Positions 8,191-61,500 of a stretch of DNA of 64,000 bases are shown piece by piece. The notes under the pieces were generated by a model. The model was given only the letters and a program-made list of their open reading frames with translations, did no database searches and was not told the origin of the DNA. How positions within the stretch are numbered: the first letter of the stretch is position 1; every line of letters begins with the position of its first letter. A program made the translations under genes and the position numbers. The DNA comes from Morinoia aosen (taxonomy: Eukaryota > Arthropoda > Malacostraca > Amphipoda > Talitridae), in contig CM059570.1 of NCBI GenBank assembly GCA_030386875.1, forward strand, positions 30,681,422 to 30,745,421, given 5' to 3'.

Positions 8191-8984
8191 CGCTGTGTTC
8201 CTATAATCACAGACGGGAGTCGCTATTTATCAAGAAGCGCACGAGCCACGAACGCCGCTGTAAATTAAGACCTTGTCGAAAGTGCGGGCTTGTGAGGAAA
8301 CTTCTTGATTTACTTGCATAGCGTACTCGGAAAATTATGCGAGTAGTCAGAAAAGCTCGTTCATTTGTCCAAGAAAATTGAGTACGCGGTCGGAAAACTC
8401 TACGGAACTCTTTGCCGTATTCAGAAGACTTCAAGATTGTTTGCTGTGCGTAAGATAGGCGTGATAAGGCCCCAACTTTGCTTGGTATGGATGTATGAGC
8501 TTGATTTTGTGCTTTCAATACAAAGTTCATCTATCGTATCTGCATTTGGCTAGTGCAATGAAGTTTAATGATAAAATCAGGTTTATATTAAAACAAGTTC
8601 GAGTATGTATGTCAGATCTCTCAAATAAGGATAATAATAAATAATAATAAATAATAATGATAAATAAGGATAATAGCTCATGAATTTGTTGAATTTCTAT
8701 GAATATTTCAGAGAATATTCAGTAACAACACGTAACTATGGACCAACTACCGTATTTTTCTTTTCGTATAGCTAATGAATGTTAAAATTTGTCGGCAAAA
8801 ATATTCAAATTTTAATGGATATGTAATTAGTTTTTTCGGTATCATATGATATTTCTTGAGTCTCTTGAGACTTATAGGGAGACTTATTACGTTTTAGATT
8901 AGAAACACCTGTCTCAGTAGTTAGGAGTGAGCTATAGCGTCTCCATGTAAGCGTTCACTCCAAATTGTAGAAAGTGTTAGAAGC
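8191..8984. other. unassigned DNA
   Basis: This is unique sequence apart from a short TAATAA microsatellite at about 8633-8668. Overlapping open frames of about 110 codons at 8207-8530 lack recognisable features. Confidence 0.4.
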
Positions 8985-10560: not shown

Positions 10561-11395
10561 AGCTTTATCATTTGCATAGGAGCAGACTGTTAACAATACG
10601 AGACATTTTTCATAAATGTCATTATATGCACAATAGTAAAATATAAGAGATACTAGACACACATCTCTATAAGTCTAATCCTTTTTACAGCTTTTACAGC
10701 ATCAGACAGGAAGTAATACGAGACATATATTTTTATAAATTTCATCATCAGTAGAAAGTGAGATGTAAGCGATACGAGTCGTATATATATATATATATAT
10801 ATATAAGTTTCATCATCTGTAATGAGCTTACTATAAACGGTACGTGATTTATATCTCCATAAGTTTCATCATCTTTACAGCAGCAGATGGTAGGTAATAC
10901 GAGACACTTATCTTCATAAGTTTCATCACCTGTACAACATCAGACAGTAAATAATATGAGATATATATATCTTCTTGAGTTTCATCATCTGTACAACAGC
11001 AGAGTGTCAGTAATACAAGACATACTGTATCTCTTTATAAGTTTCACTGTCTCTGCACCAGCAAGCAGTAAGTAATACGATACATATATCTTCGCAAGTT
11101 TCATCATCTCTACACCATCAGACCGTAAGTAATACGAGTCATATATCGTCACAAGTTTTATCATCTCTACAACATCTGACAGTTAGTAATTTGAGACATA
11201 CTTTATAAGTTTCATCATCTTTACAGCATCAGACAGTTAGTAATTCGAAACATATATCTTCATAAGTTTCATCATCTACACAGAATCAGACAGGTAGTAA
11301 TACAAAACATACTGTATCCGTTTATAAGTTTCACCGTCTCTACACCAGCAGACAGTTAGTATTTCGAGGCATATATCTTCACAAGTTTCATCATC
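10561..11395. repeat. diverged portion of the 55-60-bp minisatellite
   Basis: About 14 degenerate copies share AAGTTTCATCATCTGTACA, CAGCAGACAGTAAGTAATAC and GAGACATATATCTT. They are the older flank of the homogeneous array that follows. Confidence 0.8.
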
Positions 11396-12075
11396 GGTAC
11401 AGCAGCGGACGGTAAGTAATACGAGACATATCTTCACAAGTTTCATCATCAGTACAGCAGCGGACGGTAAGTAATACGAGACATATCTTCACAAGTTGCA
11501 TCATCAGTACAGCAGCGGACGGTAAGTAATACGAGACATATCTTCACAAGTTTCATCATCAGTACAGCAGCGGACGGTAAGTAATACGAGACATATCTTC
11601 ACAAGCTTCATCATCAGTACAGCAGCGGACGGTAAGTAATACGAGACATATCTTCACAAGTTGCATCATCAGTACAGCAGCGGACGGTAAGTAATACGAG
11701 ACATATCTTCACAAGCTTCATCATCAGTACAGCAGCGAACGGTAAGTAATACGAGACATATCTTCACAAGCTTCATCATCAGTACAGCAGCGGACGGTAA
11801 GTAATACGAGACATATCTTCACAAGTTGCATCATCAGTACAGCAGCGGACGGTAAGTAATACGAGACATATCTTCACAAGCTTCATCATCAGTACAGCAG
11901 CGGACGGTAAGTAATACGAGACATATCTTCACAAGTTGCATCATCAGTACAGCAGCGGACGGTAAGTAATACGAGACATATCTTCACAAGCTTCGTCATC
12001 AGTACAGCAGCGAACGGTAAGTAATACGAGACATATCTTCACAAGCTTCATCATCAGTACAGCAGTGGACGGTAA
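11396..12075. repeat. homogeneous 55-bp minisatellite, about 12 copies
   Basis: The unit is CAGTACAGCAGCGGACGGTA, AGTAATACGAGACATATCTT and CACAAGYTTCATCAT, with a 55-bp period and very few differences. Each unit contains a GGTAAGT on the plus strand, identical to a strong 5' splice-site core, but no plus-strand gene is seen. Confidence 0.95.
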
Positions 12076-13861
12076 GTGGTCCTATCCTTATCATTTCCGC
12101 AACAACAGACTGTGTGCGGTACGGGAAATATATCACGTATCTTCAACCTACGCCTCATCCTCTCGAAGCTGTCCGGTCACAAGACAGATTGACTGGGCGG
12201 GCCCGGGCCTCGGAGGACAAAAGATGCCCATTGAGGCTTCCATCTCCTCTCTTATTGAGATTAATCGGAGCGAAATAGGCATCCCTGACCAGAACTCAGT
12301 TCCCTTGATTTATAGGGGGTGGGTCGAGTTGCGAGTCTTTCAAAGATCTATCGCATAGAAGTTCGACAGCTTTCATAACGTTGTTATTTTTAGCTTTTCC
12401 GATATTCCCCCTAAATTCTGTGTTTTTACTCGCCTACCCTTGCGCTTAGTGTTATTCTTGTGATTGCTGAATACGTGCTTTCAGTTTTTCTTCGAAAAAG
12501 TTGTCATATTCTATAAAAGTTTTATTAATCTGTGTGGCATAGTTCGGTTTTGGTGAGTTCACTGAGAATTCTTCAAGTATATATTACGGCGTCTTTGTAA
12601 AGACAAATATTTGTATTCGTTTGCATACATCTCAGCCCCAACCATGCTGGGGGGAGAATTCCATATTGAAGTCAGAAAAGTTCTGCAACAGCTTAGTGCA
12701 GTAAGATTAGTTCGCCTTTACAGATGTCACGTCTGCTCTCTGTAGTCAGTTTCTTAGCATCGTGGCTGCGTGTGCCACTGCAGTGATTCCGTCAGTTAAC
12801 TCCACTGTGCAGGACCAAACTGCAATTGACGACTGTATGTACTGACCACAGTTTACAAATAAAGTCTTCACTCAGTATGATCTGTATCGCTCGGGTGTTT
12901 CTTACGGTGCTGATTTATAGGCAAAGAGTGATAATTTATTGATAACTTATCGGGAATTTATTTCTAATTTATCGGGAATTTATTGCTAATTCATCATTAA
13001 CTTGTTTTCAATTTATTGTCAATTCACTGCTAATTTAATGCTAATTTTTGCTAATATTTGCGCCAAAAAGTAGAAAATCATTGCACACACAAAGAAAATT
13101 TATAACTGATCCTAACTCTGTTTTTTTTTCGCGTATGGGAAAGCGCTGGTGAATTTTACAATCGATGTATAAAACTGCGAAATTCTACCTTTCTGTTTGT
13201 AATAATTTTCATAGGAAACAACTCTAAACTTCAGATATTAACAGATCTTTTTGAATTATGTTTAAGCTTATCTTCTAAGCGATGTTCTAAAGTATCTGAT
13301 GTTATAAAGCAAAGCGAACAAATAAAAAACAGAACAAAAAATTAATTGAATCAGAAGTTGTTTTCAAGTTGAAAAAGCAAGACACTTTAGCGTTGCTTAG
13401 ATAAATTTTTCTTTGTATTTATTCAATAAAGAATACGTTTTTCAATTCATGCACTTTAACTTTGTTCTAATAATCCCAAAAACACCACAACAACTCCGTC
13501 CTAAACGCCCATTAAAAACATATGAATGAAGATCAAAGTCCCAGCGTCAGCTTTACTACAATGGAATCACGTAGAATTACCGGATTCCGGCTCCGTTTTA
13601 TAGGATTATCGGTTTGCTTTTTCCAAAAGATTACGGCTGCCGACGGCTCCAACTTTTTTGGACTCAGAGCAGAATTACACAAGATTACCTGGCCCAGAGT
13701 CTGGAGAGGATAATTGCGACAACCAGAGATAGCTGAGTGCCGAGCTCGGGCTCTAAAATTCCAAGTAATGTTGGAGGACGCAGCCTGAATGTCTCGTTAT
13801 GTTAAAATACACTCGAGTCTTTTGAGAAAACAAAGCGAGTGTGTGTCTTCTTCTTTCCTTA
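12076..13861. other. unassigned DNA with GC-richer patches
   Basis: A GC-richer patch at about 12165-12345 and a low-AT patch at about 13530-13750 have no coding signature I recognise. Bases 12940-13035 hold short tandem GCTAATTTATCGGGAATTTA-type repeats. An AATAAA at 12858-12863 with surrounding sequence looks LTR-tail-like but lacks supporting ends. Confidence 0.35.
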
Positions 13862-27549: not shown

Positions 27550-28063
27550 TTTATTTCGAGTAAAAAATAAATTTTTTCAGTAAAAAATAAATTCAGCAGT
27601 TACAATCATATTCGAATGCGCAGCTGGGCATAGGGAAAACAGCTGAACCTGCACGATTTTAAACATGAAAAGAAGCAAAATAAACTTGATTAATATTTGT
27701 TATGAATATCAATGAATTTCCATACAATGCTGATGGATATAATGCTGTGACTGCAATTGTAATACATGGAACTCGGCAGAATTGTTATTTAATCCGGGAA
27801 AATCACGTCGTCACATATGAACGTCACATATGAAATCACGCAAATGTCACTTATGAACACAGTAAAATCCAGAATAATTACGTAGTGCTAGATGCAGCAT
27901 CAACTGCAGATGGGCTTGAGCTGTATGTATGTAGGGTGGAACTATACATTGAAAATAAACCACTCTAGTATATATGGGGGATGAATGGGATGAATATACA
28001 ACACGCAGGGAAACGAAATCCTATTTGGAAGCAGCCGTGAAAACAGACTGTGAGCTACCGCTG
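27550..28063 (-). other. probable 3' untranslated region with candidate poly(A) signals
   Basis: On the minus strand downstream of the stop, the first poly(A)-signal-like hexamer is ATTAAA at 27793-27788 and the first canonical AATAAA is at 27555-27550. The DNA in between is AT-rich and not repetitive. No cleavage site can be chosen from sequence alone. Confidence 0.3.
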
Positions 28064-34500: not shown

Positions 34501-37500
34501 GTACTACAGTACGCGAAGAGTTATGTGGATGCACGTAGTTACTCAAAATTTTTATCTTCTCCTGAAAATCATAGGTAATTGCGTCTCTCATCTTGAAACT
34601 GCCCACCTATGCTTAGCCTGTCCAAATAATAAAACCAACCTGGAACTAAAGAACTCATTTCGACAAAATTAGTTTCATTGAATTAGAACTAATGAATTTT
34701 TTCGAGCTCGCATTCGCATAATGAACTGCATATTCAACAGCACCTGATGCAGCCACACAAGATATTTTGATTTTGAAATTTAGGGGACAACTTAATTAGT
34801 GTCAGCTCATTGTGCTCCACGGTAGTGGTATTGTTATTAACATCTTCTTGTAACAATGCAGTGTTGTGTAAAATTCCTCGTGGCATTCAACCATGAAAAG
34901 TATATCCGAAAACATTAAAACATTTCACTCGCTAGGTTCCATTTACAAACATTATTACTAGGTAAGACAAACATTATTACTAGGTAAGGGCGTCTAGCTG
35001 AAAGACAACGCTACAAGGGACGTGGAAAATGTCATACTGGGGATAGATTTCCACGGATCATTTTGATAAGGAGGACAGAGATGGACAAAGCTGGACGTGC
35101 TCCAAGGAGATACTACGTTTCAAACAAAGCTGGACGTGCTCAAAGGAGATACTACGTTTCAAACAAAGCTGGACGTGCTCAAAGGAGATACTACGTTTCA
35201 AACAAAGCTGGACGTGCTCAAAGGAGATACTACGTTTCAAACAAAGCTGGACGTGCTCAAAGGAGATACTACGTTTCAAACAAAGCTGGACGTGCTCAAA
35301 GGAAATACTACGTTTCAAACAAAGCTGGACGTGCTCAAAGGAGATACTACGTTTCAAACAAAGCTGGACGTGCTCAAAGGAAATACTACGTTTCAAACAA
35401 AGCTGGACGTGCTCAAAGGAAATACTACGTTTCAAACAAAGCTGGACGTGCTCAAAGGAGATACTACGTTTCAAACAAAGCTGGACGTGCTCAAAGGAGA
35501 TACTACGTTTCAAACAAAGCTGGACGTGCTCAAAGGAGATACTACGTTTCAAACAAAGCTGGACGTGCTCAAAGGAAATACTACGTTTCAAACAAAGCTG
35601 GACGTGCTCAAAGGAGATACTACGTTTCAAACAAAGCTGGACGTGCTCAAAGGAAATACTACGTTTCAAACAAAGCTGGACGTGCTCAAAGGAAATACTA
35701 CGTTTCAAACAAAGCTGGACGTGCTCAAAGGAGATACTACGTTTCAAACAAAGCTGGACGTGCTCAAAGGAAATACTACGTTTCAAACAAAGCTGGACGT
35801 GCTCAAAGGAGATACTACGTTTCAAACAAAGCTGGACGTGCTCAAAGGAAATACTACGTTTCAAACAAAGCTGGACGTGCTCAAAGGAGATACTACGTTT
35901 CAAACAAAGCTGGACGTGCTCAAAGGAAATACTACGTTTCAAACAAAGCTGCACGTGCTCAAAGGAGATACTACGTTTCAAACAAAGCTGGACGTGCTCA
36001 AAGGAAATACTACGTTTCAAACAAAGCTGGACGTGCTCAAAGGAGATACTACGTTTCAAACAAAGCTGGACGTGCTCAAAGGAGATACTACGTTTCAAAC
36101 AAAGCTGGACGTGCTCAAAGGAAATACTACGTTTCAAACAAAGCTGGACGTGCTCAAAGGAAATACTACGTTTCAAACAAAGCTGGACGTGCTCAAAGGA
36201 AATTTCTACGTTCCAAACAAAGCTGGACGTGCTCAAAGGAAATACTACGTTTCAAACAAAGCTGGACGTGCTCAAAGGAGATACTACGTTTCAAACAAAG
36301 CTGGACGTGCTCAAAGGAGATACTACGTTTCAAACAAAGCTGGACGTGCTCAAAGGAGATACTACGTTTCAAACAAAGCTGGACGTGCTCAAAGGAAATA
36401 CTACGTTTCAAACAAAGCTGGACGTGCTCAAAGGAAATACTACGTTTCAAACAAAGCTGGACGTGCTCAAAGGAAATTTCTACGTTCCAAACAAAGCTGG
36501 ACGTGCTCAAAGGAAATACTACGTTTCAAACAAAGCTGGACGTGCTCAAAGGAGATACTACGTTTCAAACAAAGCTGGACGTGCTCAAAGGAGATACTAC
36601 GTTTCAAACAAAGCTGGACGTGCTCAAAGGAGATACTACGTTTCAAACAAAGCTGGACGTGCTCAAAGGAAATACTACGTTTCAAACAAAGCTGGACGTG
36701 CTCAAAGGAGATACTACGTTTCAAACAAAGCTGGACGTGCTCAAAGGAAATACTACGTTTAAACAAAGCTGGACGTGCTCAAAGGAAATACTACGTTTCA
36801 AACAAAGCTGGACGTGCTCAAAGGAGATACTACGTTTCAAACAAAGCTGGACGTGCTCAAAGGAGATACTACGTTTCAAACAAAGCTGGACGTGCTCAAA
36901 GGAAATACTACGTTTCAAACAAAGCTGGACGTGCTCAAAGGAAATACTACGTTTCAAACAAAGCTGGACGTGCTCAAAGGAAATACTACGTTTCAAACAA
37001 AGCTGGACGTGCTCAAAGGAGATACTACGTTTCAAACAAAGCTGGACGTGCTCAAAGGAGATACTACGTTTCAAACAAAGCTGGACGTGCTCAAAGGAGA
37101 TACTACGTTTCAAACAAAGCTGGACGTGCTCAAAGGAAATACTACGTTTCAAACAAAGCTGGACGTGCTCAAAGGAGATACTACGTTTCAAACAAAGCTG
37201 GACGTGCTCAAAGGAGATACTACGTTTCAAACAAAGCTGGACGTGCTCAAAGGAAATACTACGTTTCAAACAAAGCTGGACGTGCTCAAAGGAAATACTA
37301 CGTTTCAAACAAAGCTGGACGTGCTCAAAGGAGATACTACGTTTCAAACAAAGCTGGACGTGCTCAAAGGAAATACTACGTTTCAAACAAAGCTGGACGT
37401 GCTCAAAGGAAATACTACGTTTCAAACAAAGCTGGACGTGCTCAAAGGAGATACTACGTTTCAAACAAAGCTGGACGTGCTCAAAGGAGATACTACGTTT

Positions 37501-40500
37501 CAAACAAAGCTGGACGTGCTCAAAGGAGATACTACGTTTCAAACAAAGCTGGACGTGCTCAAAGGAAATACTACGTTTCAAACAAAGCTGGACGTGCTCA
37601 AAGGAGATACTACGTTTCAAACAAAGCTGGACGTGCTCAAAGGAAATACTACGTTTCAAACAAAGCTGGACGTGCTCAAAGGAGATACTACGTTTCAAAC
37701 AAAGCTGCACGTGCTCAAAGGAGATACTACGTTTCAAACAAAGCTGGACGTGCTCAAAGGAGATACTACGTTTCAAACAAAGCTGGACGTGCTCAAAGGA
37801 GATACTACGTTTCAAACAAAGCTGGACGTGCTCAAAGGAGATACTACGTTTCAAACAAAGCTGGACGTGCTCAAAGGAAATACTACGTTTCAAACAAAGC
37901 TGGACGTGCTCAAAGGAAATACTACGTTTCAAACAAAGCTGGACGTGCTCAAAGGAAATTTCTACGTTCCAAACAAAGCTGGACGTGCTCAAAGGAAATA
38001 CTACGTTTCAAACAAAGCTGGACGTGCTCAAAGGAGATACTACGTTTCAAACAAAGCTGGACGTGCTCAAAGGAGATACTTCGTTTCAAACAAAGCTGGA
38101 CGTGCTCAAAGGAGATACTACGTTTCAAACAAAGCTGGACGTGCTCAAAGGAGATACTACGTTTCAAACAAAGCTGGACGTGCTCAAAGGAGATACTACG
38201 TTTCAAACAAAGCTGGACGTGCTCAAAGGAGATACTACGTTTCAAACAAAGCTGGACGTGCTCAAAGGAGATACTACGTTTCAAACAAAGCTGGACGTGC
38301 TCAAAGGAGATACTACGTTTCAAACAAAGCTGGACGTGCTCAAAGGAGGTACTACGTTTCAAACAAAGCTGGACGGGCTCAAAGGAGATACTACGTTTCA
38401 AACAAAGCTGGACGTGCTCAAAGGAGATACTACGTTTCAAACAAAGCTGGACGTGCTCAAAGGAGATACTACGTTTCAAACAATTGTTGTTCGGACTTAT
38501 TACAATTGGTGCGATGGATGCAGAAAAATTCCAACTGGACGACAAAAATCTGCCTCTTCCGAGCAACAATTCTTCACAATAATAATAGTTGCGTTACAAA
38601 TTACAGGGTTGAAGTAGTCGAAAATACGTACCATTTTAAAGGTGCGATCCAAATTTGGTTCTTAAAAGCTATGGATTTAACTCAATTTTATCCTCAGAGT
38701 TGCCTAAATATTTCTTTCCCCTTAGCATCACAACATGAAGCTTTACATTACATTCTTACATTCTCACAGACACTCGATCATACTTCGCCAGAGCTTCCCA
38801 ACCTGAGGGTATTATACCCCACTTGGGTAGTTTGGGGTAAAAGAAATATAGAGAAATATTTACCTCTGACGACTTGCATCCATCATTCCAGTGAGATGAA
38901 CATTAATTAACTAAAACAGTTTTCACTTTCCTTTCTTTTTTACCCTTGTGTAATTTTTAATAAAGTAGTTAAGTGAAAATAAAAATTTACCATAATTCTT
39001 ATTAGTCGTTGTATCTTGTACACCCGAAAGCCCATTCGCTTACAACACGAAATTATTCCATTGAGTTATTAATGGGGTACCAGGAATGATGAAATTCATT
39101 GGCTAAAACACACACTTTTATCGATAGAGTGCAAATTACTAACTACAAATCCTTGTAAAGTAAATTACATATTGAAAAAGAATTCATTTATTAATCGATC
39201 TTTTCGATCTTTCAACGGATGTTTCACTGTTTTCACGTCTCCATTCACTGTCTAAGGTTGGGAACCTCTGTGGGACGGTTTTCTATTCTATAGAATCGGA
39301 GGCAGTGACCCTGATGGACAGCACTCCAACTAACTACGGTTCTCAATCCTACGGTTCACGATCCTAAAGAAACGGAGGCACTGACCCTGATGGACAGCAC
39401 TCCAACTAACTACGGTTCTCAATCCTACGGTTCACGATCCTAAAGAAACGGAGGCACTGACCCTGATGGACAGCACTCCAACTAACTACGGTTCTCAATC
39501 CTACGGTTCACGATCCTAAAGAAACGGAGGCACTGACCCTGATGGACAGCACTCCAACTAACTACGGTCCTCAATCCTACGGTTCACGATCCTAAAGAAA
39601 CGGAGGCACTGATCCTGATGGACAGCACTCCAACTAACTACGGTTCTCAATCCTACGGTTCACGATCCTAAAGAAACAGAGGCACTGACCCTGATGGACA
39701 GCACTCCAACTAACTACGGTTCTCAATCCTACGGTTCACGATCCTAAAGAAACGGAGGCACTGACCCTGATCGACAGCACTCCGACCAGCGCGATGGCGA
39801 CCAGCGCCGTCACCGTCCCTGCGAGCGCCCCCAGCAAGCTCGCTAAGTTGATGCTCATCGGCACGTCGCTGCCCGGCCTCTCAGAGTGGGACAAGCTCGA
39901 GCTGCCCTCTGGTGGACAGACGAAGGGAAATGTTTTAAAATACCTATCGAAAATGGGGCTGTACAATTAAAAAATTTTATCGCGTAAACGGTAAAGGTAT
40001 GTAGTGTGATTGCTGCCTGCAAAACGCATGGTGGACTGAAGAAAGGGGAATAGGAATGGTTTTCCTGCTGTACCTTCAATAAATTATGATTAGTAAAAAT
40101 AATTACTTTATTCCATTATTAAGAAGTTTATATTTATATCATTCATTCGTTATTATGGTGTTATTCCAACATTTCCCTAGGAAGTATTGATACCGCTTCT
40201 AATACTTAACTGTAAGAGACATTCTATAGAAAAAAATATTAAATTATTCAAGTGAACAAATTCGTAATTGAAAAATTTGTCAGGTGTCAAGATTTAACCG
40301 TGACTTATCATAGCAAGCACGAAAATTAGCCATGTTTTGGTACAGGATGAAGCTCATGAACATCGGTGTGCGATGGATAATAATAAGCCATTATAATGTG
40401 TTACTAAAGATGCTTGAATACTTCGTAGCATGTCACCACATGCGACCACCCTCTTGATCTCGGAGCTGAAAAACATTCCGGTTGATACTAAGGACATTAA

Positions 40501-52500: not shown

Positions 52501-55500
52501 TCGATTAGTGACTTGGGGATTACGATACTCTAGCGTGTGTATCATACAAGGATCCTTGCTCTGAGATAATTTAAAACTAATGATGTGCTTTTTACATCAT
52601 CTTTATTGGAAATCAAAGGTTTTTCTTTCTTTTCTTTCCTGTTAATTGAGACCAGCGTTATGAGATGCTTTCTATGGAGGCGAATGTTCACTTTTAAAAC
52701 ACAACCTCGAATCAACACAAATGTGTTTGGTCGTATCATAGAAAATTTTTGTGATGCAGCCTTTCATTCAAATGTAGCTGAAACATAGAACATTTCTACG
52801 ACACATGCTTGAATATAAAATAACGAAGTTGTAGCATAGGTAGTTTTTACTACACAACTTTGAACCAACACAAATGTTGCTGTGTTATAGATTATTTTAA
52901 CGACAAAAACTTGACTCAACACAAAGTTCTGTAGTTATGTCATAGATCATCAACAACACTCTTGCATCAATGGACTGTTGTGCAATTTCAGCAATTAAAA
53001 CAATACCTTTCTGTGTCAATGCACTGCTATGTGAGCTCATAAACAGGAAATATTGGTACTGACATGCTGAATGTACCATAAATACTAAATTCACGATAAA
53101 CACTGAATTAACCGTAAATACGGAATGCACGGTAAATACAGTATACTCTCACCGGTATCGTGCCTGGTCTCGAGCTGCTTCACAGGCAGGCTGGGCAGGT
53201 CGACCGGCAGCTTGACGGCAGACTTGGAGCGACCGCGTGTGTTGCCGGAGTAGATGATGAGCGTCACGCTCGCTCCGTTCTCCAGCCCGGCCACCTGGAA
53301 CCTGGACCATGTATCTTGTTTAGCATACAGCTTCACGTGCTCTAAAGATACAGCGTAGAACCTGGATCTACCCCCTTTAGAGCTTCACGTGCTTTAGAGA
53401 TACAGCGTAGAACCTGGATCTGCCACCTTTACAGCTTCACGTTCTCTAAAGATAGAATACAAAATCTGGATCTGCCACCTTGAACCTGGACCACGAGCCA
53501 GATATCTTACTTAGCATACCGCTTCACGTGTACAAAATATAAAGTGTAGAATCCGGATCTGCCACCCGGAACCTGGCCCACAAGTCAAGTATTTAGTTTA
53601 GTTTGAAGAGATGCATGTGCATTCAAGCAAGTCAGAATCTGTTTAGCCTGTAGAATTCAATGTCCACTTGTGCACTGGTGAAACTCGTATTACAGATACG
53701 GTCATTAAGCATCCTTATGAACTTGACAGAGAGACGGACCAATCATTGCATTTTCTTGAAGAATAGATACAATCATCGTTGCATAAATATTTTTTGGCTT
53801 GTAAGTAAAATTGAGCATTTGTCAAGTTTTTCATTTCGTTTGAATGGTATATATGTATGATGCCATTCAAATCGACATGAATTATTGAGAATGTCGCATA
53901 TATAATATTTATATATTTAAACAAACTATTACACTATTATTAAATGAAATAAGTATTTATAGTAGGAGTCTTCTCTAAAGGAAAGCAGCACTTAGAATAT
54001 AACGTAATTGAACACTGCTGAATAATGCTTGCACTGGTTTGATTATTTTTACCGAGACTCCAAACTGTGGAACCAATTAGATGCGAGTTTTGTGCTCGTC
54101 TGCTAGAGTACTTGCTCCAAGTTTCCCTGATTCAAAATTACTGAAACTCGCGAATGCTCGGAAGGTAACTCTCATACTCTGAGGACATGTACTCAATCAA
54201 CGTGAGCTGAAATAGCTGGAGATCTTATTTAGCCTTACGCCGTGCTTCTTGAACGCTAACTAAAAAACGCTGACTAAATAACTGTCCGGCTTGCAACTGA
54301 CGGCAATGCACAAATCCCAATAACCTGTAAAATAACTAAATCACTGTCAGCTTCACAACAGCTGACACTGCAAGAATTTTATTAACCTGTAAAATAAATA
54401 AATCACTGTCAGCTTCACAACAGCTGACACTACAATAATTTTGTGACTTGTAAAATAACAAAATAATTGCCAGCTTCACAACTGTTCACACTACACGCAC
54501 ACAACTGCCCGTTAGCAACACACGAGCGTAGGTAAACACTACAGGCGCAAGCAACAAGTGCACATCAGAAATTGACTGGACAGATATAGACCAGGGTGCT
54601 CTAAAATTCAGAGCTAAAAGCCCCGTTTAAATATATTTGTTTGCCCTCACAAAGAGGATAGTATTTAAAAGCGTTTGAAAGCAGTCTCAAAATTCTGAAC
54701 AGTTATAAACCAAAACGAGTGTTTGCCTCAATCCGGAAAAAAATGCTGCTCTAGGTTCTCGTGTTTATTACCCAAGCATAATATCTATGTTCGAGTATTA
54801 TGTCTGCATACGAGTATTATGTCTGCATACGAGTATTATGTTTGCATACGAGTATTATGTTTGCATACGAGTATTATGTCTGCATACGAGTATTATGTCT
54901 GTATACGAGTATTATGTCTGCATACGAGTATTATGTCTGTATACGAGTATTATGTCTGCATACGAGTATTATGTCTGCATACGAGTATTATGTCTGCATA
55001 CGAGTATTATGTCTGTATACGAGTATTATGTCTGCATACGAGTATTATGTCTGCATACGAGTATTATGTTTGCATACGAGTATTATGTTTGCATACGAGT
55101 ATTATGTCTGCATACGAGTATTATGTCTGTATACGAGTATTATGTCTGCATACGAGTATTATGTCTGTATACGAGTATTATGTCTGCATACGAGTATTAT
55201 GTCTGCATACGAGTATTATGTCTGCATACGAGTATTATGTCTGCATACGAGTATTATGTCTGCATACGAGTATTATGTCTGCATACGAGTATTATGTCTG
55301 CATACGAGTATTATGTCTGCATACGAGTATTATGTCTGCATACGAGTATTATGTCTGCATACGAGTATTATGTCTGCATACGAGTATTATGTCTGCATAC
55401 AAGTATTATGTCTGTATACAAGTATTATGTCTGCATACGAGTATTATGTCTGCATACGAGTATTATGTCTGCATACGAGTATTATGTCTGCATACGAGTA

Positions 55501-58500: not shown

Positions 58501-61500
58501 TTAACCACAAATATTCCGAATAACGCTGCTGTTTTGCAATATCAAATTCATAATCCCACAAAATTGAGTGTACATCCTTCAATTTAAAGAAAAAACATAA
58601 CGAACAATGTTGCTCACACCTGTTCTTAAATATTAAATTCATAAGCTTTTATTCTGAATTTCATCTGCTCCAAATCCAGATTTTAAATTTAAATAAATTT
58701 AAAAATTAAACAAAACGAAATTTAAATAAATTTAAACTCCAAACATTGCGACCAAACCGAAGCCCCACTCACGCTGGCTGCGCGGCGGAGACGTTGGCCT
58801 GCAGCACGCTGGGCTTGCCCGAGCGCACCTCCATGTGGAAGGTCTGCGGCAGCCCGCCCCCGTAGCCCGGCCTGCAGGCCACCGCCACACTGCTGGGCGT
58901 CATGTTCGTCACCTTGCATTCGTTGGGCGGGCCGGGACGGGCTGCAAAACAGGGCCAAGCTCTGATGTCACACGGAATACGGAAATGTAATTATTCAGAG
59001 GCTTCATCTGGATATAGCTTGCGTAGATATGGTTATTCAGTGGCTTCAAGTGGATGTAGGATACGTAGATGTAATTATTCGGGAGCTTCTTCTGGATATG
59101 GAATACGTACATATAATTATTCAATGACTTCTTCTGAATATAGGATGCGTAGATGTAATTACTCAGTGGCTCCTCGTGGATGTAGGAGACGTAAAAATAA
59201 TTATACAGGGGTTTCGTTTGGATATAGGATACGTACAGTAGATGTAATTATTCAGTGGCTTCATCTGGACACAGAATACGTAGATATAATTATTCATTTG
59301 CCTCTCCTCAGGATATACGATATACAGATATAATTAAGTAATGGTTTTGTATGGATGTAGGAAACAGAACTGTTCCTTTTCGCTTCCGACGACGTGTATT
59401 GAGGTTTCATTTGCGCGTACGACACAGAAACGTAGCCTTTCAGTCTTTGAGTGTATGTAGGATATATAAACATTATCTTCCAAAGACTTTGAGTGGATGT
59501 ATGATTTTGAAATGTAATCTTCAGGGGTTTCGCAGGGATATAGAAAGTAGAAATTCGATATTTCAGTTGTGTCAATAGATATGAAAGAAACGAGCGCTGC
59601 AGGCGCTGCAGAACTCGAATGAAGCGAGTAAACAAACGTATATTTCCAGCACTATTTAACTATGTGAAGCTTGTATTTCAAGTCCCCTTGCTCAAGCTTC
59701 GCATCAAATGAAAAGGTTTTAAGATGCGTTCAGGCCGAAGAACATCGTCTCTATAACATTTGCCTTTTGAAATCAAGAAAATAAAGAAACTTTTTTTCTT
59801 CAAGACATTTTATTCTTGCAAGAGCTACCCTCGAAAAACTAGGGAAACATCACTTGAATTAATGATTTTTTTTAATATTTAGAGTTGACTAAGTGGGTGA
59901 AAAGTTAGTTAATCTCGAGCTTACGCGGCATTGACTTGCTATATTTTTATCACCTCCATGTCTTTGAGTTGAAAATCACTTTGGCAGAACATTTGAAACT
60001 GCGCTGATTTCATGGTCTGAATGATTATTTTTATGGTCAAAATTTGCAAGTTTTTTTAGAACATTCAGCTTGCCCTGCAAGAATGATTAGAAGCTAATAT
60101 CAGAAAATATAAGCTGAAAAAATCTTATTTTAGCCAAAGAGAAAGAAGATTAGCAATATAGACTTCTCAATCTTACACTATTTGTTCGAGTTTCTGTTAT
60201 AACCTCACAAAATTATATTTCATCTGCGCCTACATAAAAGCTCATTCTCTCTCGTACAGCTCTGCACAATATTGCTCTAGCTCACATGGTTTACACGGGT
60301 TAGTGCTAATGTTTTCGATGTCGGCGTGTACATCTTAATTTCTGTGAATCAAATGTATGCCCATTCGAGAACTAATTCTTTTCTATCAAACGAACACCAT
60401 GAGTGTCATTTGTAGAAAATAATTTCCAAATCTTGTCCTTGCGTCAGGAAACATCCATATAATGCGTTTTTCTTTCAGCCTTTGTCTTTTATTGCGGAAT
60501 TTCCGTTCAAACTTTCAGGTATTCTGTTGAAACTTTCCCGCGCATGACTCGTGGAGAGTTGTTGCAGTGTTCTGCATTATTTCAAGGGCTTGCGATCACG
60601 AATATTCTGGTGGTGCTACCGCTCTCCAAGTAGTAATTTCACATCCCTAAAAAGCCGTTCTCTGTGGTCCCCAGCACAGTTGTTGTTCCCAGTATCTATA
60701 TTTTATCATTACTTTGTTTATTATCTCTGCTATAGATATGCATGAATGATTAATGCAGCCAGTGTAACCGCGCATGTCTAGATTTTATTACTATTGTATT
60801 TAATATCCATGCTATAGATATACTTGTTATATAGTGAAGGGGGCATCGTTGTGGCGTGACGCTGGTTGTGTTAATAAGAGTTCCGGAGGCTGAGGTTTAC
60901 GAGTCTCGGAAGATCGTTGTGCGCTTTGCGCGGATACCTTATCGCGTTCGGGTCGCATGTCTTGATGGGGCCTCCGGCGGAAGCCGTGCCTTGTGGCGCA
61001 TCGCATTGGCAAGGACCGGAAGAGCTTTGTTCAACTGCCGGGCTCTGTAGCTTTTAAGGAGAGTTTGTGTCTCGATGAGTCAGTACAAGATTAGGAACGT
61101 TGCTGTGCGTATCCTTACCCTTCGACTTAGTATTCGGCTAAGCTAACTGAAGTTACAGCTTCTGCTAAATAACCCTCATGTCTTACTGAAAACAACGATC
61201 CTACAATACTCGTACATGAATGATTAATGCAGCCAGTGAAACCGCGGATGTCTAAATTTTATTATTATTGTATTTAATATCCCTGCTATAGATATACTCG
61301 TACATGAATGATTAATGCAGCCAGTGTAACCGGGGATGTATAGATTTTATTACCATTGTATTTAATATCCCTGCTATAGATACACATGAATGATGAACGT
61401 AGCCCGTGCGTCCCTCTGGCATAATGTTGAATTCAGGACATTCTCTATGCATAACGTTACCATAGCCACTGTACCAACACATGGGTTTTCATCTGATTTT

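Follow-up and report, generated by a model that had tools for sequence, protein, structure and literature searches.

Tandem duplications crossing an exon–intron boundary are already described (PMC2812944; PMC4974935, both in their available parts). Internal tandem repeats of human paralogues and segmental duplications, mostly minisatellites, are in some cases located at exon–intron boundaries and can alter splicing and form introns, as the accessible portion of the work reports (De Grassi and Ciccarelli, 2009; PMC2812944). In the potato RdRp gene a boundary-crossing tandem duplication created an intron, and in fission yeasts multi-copy 24-bp exonic arrays contain introns (excerpted sections of PMC4974935), and for Drosophila intron gains by way of tandem duplication were argued (PMC2891723, in excerpt). 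How the intron-proximal site wins between two comparable sites was not known according to a 2018 paper (PMC6002489, in excerpt). At the locus considered here one exon faces five identical 5′ splice sites, neighbouring ones being 76 or 152 nt apart, which makes it a natural experiment and a natural test of the preference for downstream, that is intron-proximal, sites. Minisatellites that spread across the edge of an exon can bring many splice signals into a gene, and possible missplicing at the decoys is predicted here to yield protein lacking its inner tail. Tandem arrays are reportedly, judging by the title of one paper, a source of splice variants.

The window, i.e., the whole stretch of 64,000 nt analysed, carries a gene on its minus strand. 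Reading frames together with splice phases served to model five of its exons, the joined product being free of stops. These comprise the end of an Ig-like domain (62209–62011), two FnIII-like exons (58941–58773 and 53301–53153), the second of which, E3, precedes the transmembrane exon and begins at an acceptor chosen by phase (tccag|GTTCCAGG), the transmembrane exon of 143 nt (39908–39766; donor CAGG|GTCAGT after 39766, phase fitting the neighbours) and the cytoplasmic-tail exon of 337 nt (30587–30251; acceptor gagcag|CGCCGG). In this model exon end 39766 and exon start 30587 are both in phase 0 and give the predicted junction ...LSIR|RRCCHGA...; hydropathy of the transmembrane exon has its maximum at 2.38 (19 residues), and arginines come after the predicted helix (LSIRRRCC), a common arrangement on the inner side of membranes. 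We tentatively liken the gene to the Sidestep (Side) family and take it to be a probable nerve-guidance gene. Pfam returns Ig_3 alone at 17.1 bits, below the cut-off of 30 (12.8 bits in the joined protein), with no match to Fn3 in the joined protein. PDB matches across the Ig/FnIII part include titin, Robo2 and NCAM2 as well as further proteins, Side being absent from the chains listed. The described layout of the Side family is five Ig domains, FnIII, a transmembrane helix and a short tail (PMC9743010, in excerpt); any additional Ig exons of this gene would fall outside the window. The tRNA scan and the Rfam scan at the gathering threshold were both empty.

Downstream of the transmembrane exon, just as the original prediction held, extends a 76-bp array incorporating the exon end and its donor. 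Tandem Repeats Finder (TRF) places it at 39288–39783 of the minus strand with a period of 76, 6.5 copies and 97% matches. Minisatellites are head-to-tail units of roughly 10–100 bp, highly alike, and the array is one of them. Its unit consists of the last 18 nt of the transmembrane exon followed by 58 intron bases, which qualifies the array as a tandem repeat spanning a predicted exon–intron boundary, the position of that boundary resting on the gene model. The presence of a stretch of exon in every unit was thereby confirmed, although its length, previously put at about 21 bases, is 18. The exon end GGAGTGCTGTCGATCAGG (39783–39766, minus strand) recurs in six further copies at 76-bp steps, amounting to 7 matches against 0 expected from 100 shuffles, and all six share one mismatch, TCG to TCC, synonymous for Ser. 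The six downstream copies expected earlier resolve into five complete ones, which together with the exon-borne unit show 0–3 differences per 76 among themselves, and a distal sixth (39310) that does not stand as a full copy, being ragged with 24–25 differences. The array appears to be young or recently homogenised, since the exon-borne unit has 1 deviation from the consensus in 76 positions and no difference separates three of the downstream copies. Dating of the capture by synonymous change was tried over 24 bases, a length picked after looking, where exon and unit differ at 4 positions, each time synonymously (P 0.0077; P is 0.093 for the 2 differences in 21 bases and 0.31 for the single one in 18); it was rejected, as the outer 6 bases, in which the end of a unit is compared with the exon, are probably not homologous because the exon-borne unit equals the consensus at 75 of 76 positions. 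Approximately 100 bases beyond the array, in the intron, there is AATAAA at 39192 (minus strand), a hexamer common in AT-rich DNA, which could terminate a tailless transcript.

Similarity to the systems mentioned above is thus partial. The human repeats belong to paralogues with RNA support, whereas here we deal with one gene modelled from sequence, in which all copies except the exon-borne one are intronic and a donor copy is found in each (PMC2812944, available part). In potato RdRp, too, the duplicated segment straddles a boundary and brings splice signals with it, but there a single duplication took place and the new intron was detected, in place of a multi-copy array; the fission yeast arrays are multi-copy and tandem and bear splice signals, yet their repeat is exonic and the intron spans several copies, while here mostly intron is repeated beside an existing donor (excerpts of PMC4974935). 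As in the AGGT route of intron gain, duplication supplies GT and AG signals, but that route starts from a duplicated exonic AGGT segment, which the 76-bp unit is not, 58 of its 76 bases being intronic, 18 exonic, and its junction reading AGGGT (PMC2891723, in excerpt). The locus is set apart by a ladder of putative donor copies that lies next to an existing donor and alternates with candidate acceptor tracts; no decoy-donor array in a guidance gene is present among the matches listed from the open-licence literature, as far as the excerpts of it extend.

Inspection of the donor copies, all on the minus strand, supported the counts proposed earlier. CAGG|GTCAGTGCC is kept exactly in four downstream copies, at 39690 (39684–39692), 39538 (39532–39540), 39462 (39456–39464) and 39386 (39380–39388), whereas by sequence the copy at 39614 (39608–39616) has lost its GT and reads AGGATCAGT, and the one at 39310 (39304–39312), situated in the ragged last repeat, is weakened to GTCACT, as judged by sequence and U1 duplex energy. 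The window contains the string AGGGTCAGT 5 times against 0.09 expected, always inside the array, at the real site and at the four exact decoys. As predicted, these decoys are identical to the real donor, here over the U1-pairing stretch, and a simple U1 duplex calculation assigns −7.0 kcal/mol to donor 39766 and to each of the four. The other four modelled donors have −8.2, −9.5, −8.3 and −10.1 kcal/mol, leaving 39766 the weakest of five. Within 600 nt downstream, sites at least as strong as the exon's own donor number four for 39766 and zero for each of the other four donors (the nearest at 892 nt), this own-energy comparison being stricter for stronger donors; with −7.0 as the common cut-off for all donors, the others have 1, 2, 0 and 0 such sites versus 4 for 39766, and the contrast in donor crowding is real yet smaller than by the own-energy comparison. 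At least four sites at −7.0 or better are contained in 48 of 3170 (1.5%) overlapping 600-nt windows of the minus strand, which group in three places: about 1200–1800, about 21000 and the array itself (39288–39783). A site outside the array, 38803, reaches −7.5 and is stronger than the real donor; therefore duplex energy, which is a crude score, cannot alone decide site choice.

The unit also brings signals of the opposite type, which were no part of the original prediction. Acceptor-like GCCTCYGTTTCTTTAG occurs six times in the array with 13 of 15 pyrimidines ahead of AG, while all five modelled acceptors lie below that (7–12 of 15), and among 569 intron AGs only 9 reach 12 of 15, six of them being these tracts. 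Since each unit combines an acceptor-like tract with a donor copy, it can be read as a putative 54-nt cassette, 18 codons long, in exon phase and with in-frame stops; the first of six such stretches, from acceptor-like TTTCTTTAG to the next donor copy (39690–39743, minus strand), translates as DREP*D*EP*LVGVLSIR.

We consider it somewhat probable (roughly 0.55) that a recent, passive duplication crossing the boundary made these competing and possibly leaky splice sites; the repeats are read from the sequence and the history is what we infer from them. A tandem duplication would have spanned the boundary of the transmembrane exon and then expanded. A working donor would have been kept in the exon-borne copy, making the change tolerable, while with later copies the intron would have gained more donor copies as well as acceptor-like tracts. 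Because a duplication across a junction still leaves the exon with one junction intact, arrays of this type are probably tolerable in general. U1 should pair equally with the five sites, but donor 39766 is probably still used by most transcripts, because the 143-nt exon is likely to be best defined there, and some leakage to decoys or to 54-nt cassettes might result in a product that is tailless or unstable. On this view the array is not an evolved switch but would have arisen passively, at a cost to splicing. In favour of passive duplication are the small divergence between units, the tie in duplex energy between the four exact decoys and the real site, the precedents in potato RdRp (PMC4974935) and human paralogues (PMC2812944), the presence of a second boundary-crossing repeat of the same kind and the absence of any array enrichment at exon edges.

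This second repeat, more degenerate and likewise no part of the original prediction, lies upstream of E3 at 53310–53580 of the minus strand (TRF core 53326–53481, outer limits hand-drawn) and was recognised by 20-mer matches. The E3 acceptor together with the first exon bases, TGGTCCAG|GTTCCAGGTGGC, is copied there twice, at 53474–53493 (1 mismatch) and 53561–53580 (2 mismatches), with 0 copies expected from shuffles, and splicing to them would lengthen the exon by 184 or 271 nt that contain early stops. The E3 acceptor, itself chosen by phase, has the fewest pyrimidines among the five modelled acceptors. As to exon edges, tandem arrays (48 of them, obtained by hand-merging 81 TRF rows, with short stretches 8623–8675 and 27809–27834 omitted) occupy 26% of the window, so finding one where an exon begins or ends is unremarkable in itself: only 1 of 10 modelled edges falls inside an array versus 2.6 expected. 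At distances of 0/20/40/100 bp the numbers of edges near arrays are 1/2/4/5 of 10 against 2.6/2.9/3.2/4.0 expected (circular-shift P 0.88/0.76/0.43/0.39), i.e., there is no enrichment at the edges modelled.

The predominant use of 39766 assumed in the passive scenario is open to objection. Where U1 binds simultaneously to sites separated by more than 40 nt, preference for the downstream site was reported (PMC5933811, in an excerpt quoting Eperon, 1993), which would favour decoys over the real donor. Donor 39766 is moreover the weakest of the modelled ones, and folding of RNA, tried as a factor hiding the decoys and rejected, leaves them about as open as the real site by predicted pairing (mean unpaired 0.31 at 39766 and 0.32–0.38 at the exact decoys). 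It is conceivable, albeit unlikely, that decoy donors would be used at a meaningful, copy-number-dependent rate to provide a membrane-anchored isoform without a cytoplasmic tail. Apart from the reported intron-proximal preference (PMC5933811; PMC6002489, both in excerpt), this explanation gains from the four exact decoys being gathered in 600 nt, unlike at the other modelled donors, and from the reading frame: translation past 39766 into the array was foreseen to add nine residues and a stop, and does so as VSASVSLGS*, with the same ending from all six downstream donor positions and the helix retained. Against it speak the lengths of exons ended at the exact decoys (219, 371, 447 and 523 nt) and the state of two copies, one without GT and one weakened; the five complete downstream copies have just 3 differences from the consensus, one destroying a GT, too few to test selection in either direction. 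The product had been described as a receptor with no signalling tail, which is doubtful if the gene is Sidestep-like, since Drosophila Side is an attractant bound to the substrate, its cytoplasmic domain is short, and motor axons recognise it via Beat (PMC9743010, in excerpt). A Sidestep-like gene would not necessarily lose its function along with the tail, because an attractant acting from the substrate and recognised through Beat may tolerate it; the accessible sections of PMC9743010 contain no tests of tailless Side.

Weakness of the real donor can also be interpreted in the opposite sense, namely that the extra sites are landing places for U1, helping exon definition and strengthening 39766 instead of competing with it. 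In the efficient splicing of PAH exon 11, U1 bound downstream of the natural donor was the determinant (PMC5933811, in excerpt), but PAH is a human and different gene, and we hold this explanation improbable. The same low credence is given to a copy-number rheostat, where each 76-bp unit would raise the odds of exon extension or of poison-cassette inclusion and array length in an individual would set the ratio of tailed to tailless guidance protein. Slightly less credible still are the units as tandem poison cassettes, in which splicing would run from 39766 to a TTTCTTTAG acceptor further along the array and take up one or more 54-nt pieces, lowering the amount of functional mRNA. The pyrimidine content of the tracts, above that of every modelled acceptor, their share among the pyrimidine-rich intron AGs and the stops in the 18-codon pieces are consistent with it, as is the combination of at least three strong donors with at least three strong pyrimidine tracts in 1 of 96 array-strands (48 arrays, both strands), that one being the transcribed strand of the 76-bp array, by cut-offs set after this array had been seen. 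However, inclusion of a cassette would require the skipping of one unit or more, the distance from donor to acceptor inside a unit being just 22 nt. A yTnAy branch motif 15–60 nt upstream is found for 0 of the six tracts, against 56.6% of 3600 AGs tested on the minus strand, but 3 of 5 modelled acceptors are also without it, which renders the branch-point search uninformative. An assembly artefact, with the array collapsed or expanded and the decoys not as shown, is very improbable: three identical copies mean that copy number could be wrong, but two of the copies, those with their starts at 39707 and 39631, carry private variants, and an 87-copy array of 3.4 kb in the same intron suggests that the assembly is able to span repeats.

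Several other arrays of the window deserve mention. The 55-bp array at 10850–12077 presents 31 strong donor-like sites on the plus strand, with GGTAAGT in its unit; they are antisense to the gene and tied to no modelled exon. On the minus strand a 42-bp array (58974–59336), in which no splice-site copy was seen, stops 33 bases short of the acceptor of exon 58941–58773, and one minus-strand frame is open over 58909–59247 with 14 residues per unit. The long array sharing the intron with the 76-bp one (35085–38483) has a 39-bp unit with 97% likeness between copies; two of its forward frames are open throughout and a single stop, near 36762, interrupts the remaining one, the frames staying open because 39 is a multiple of 3.
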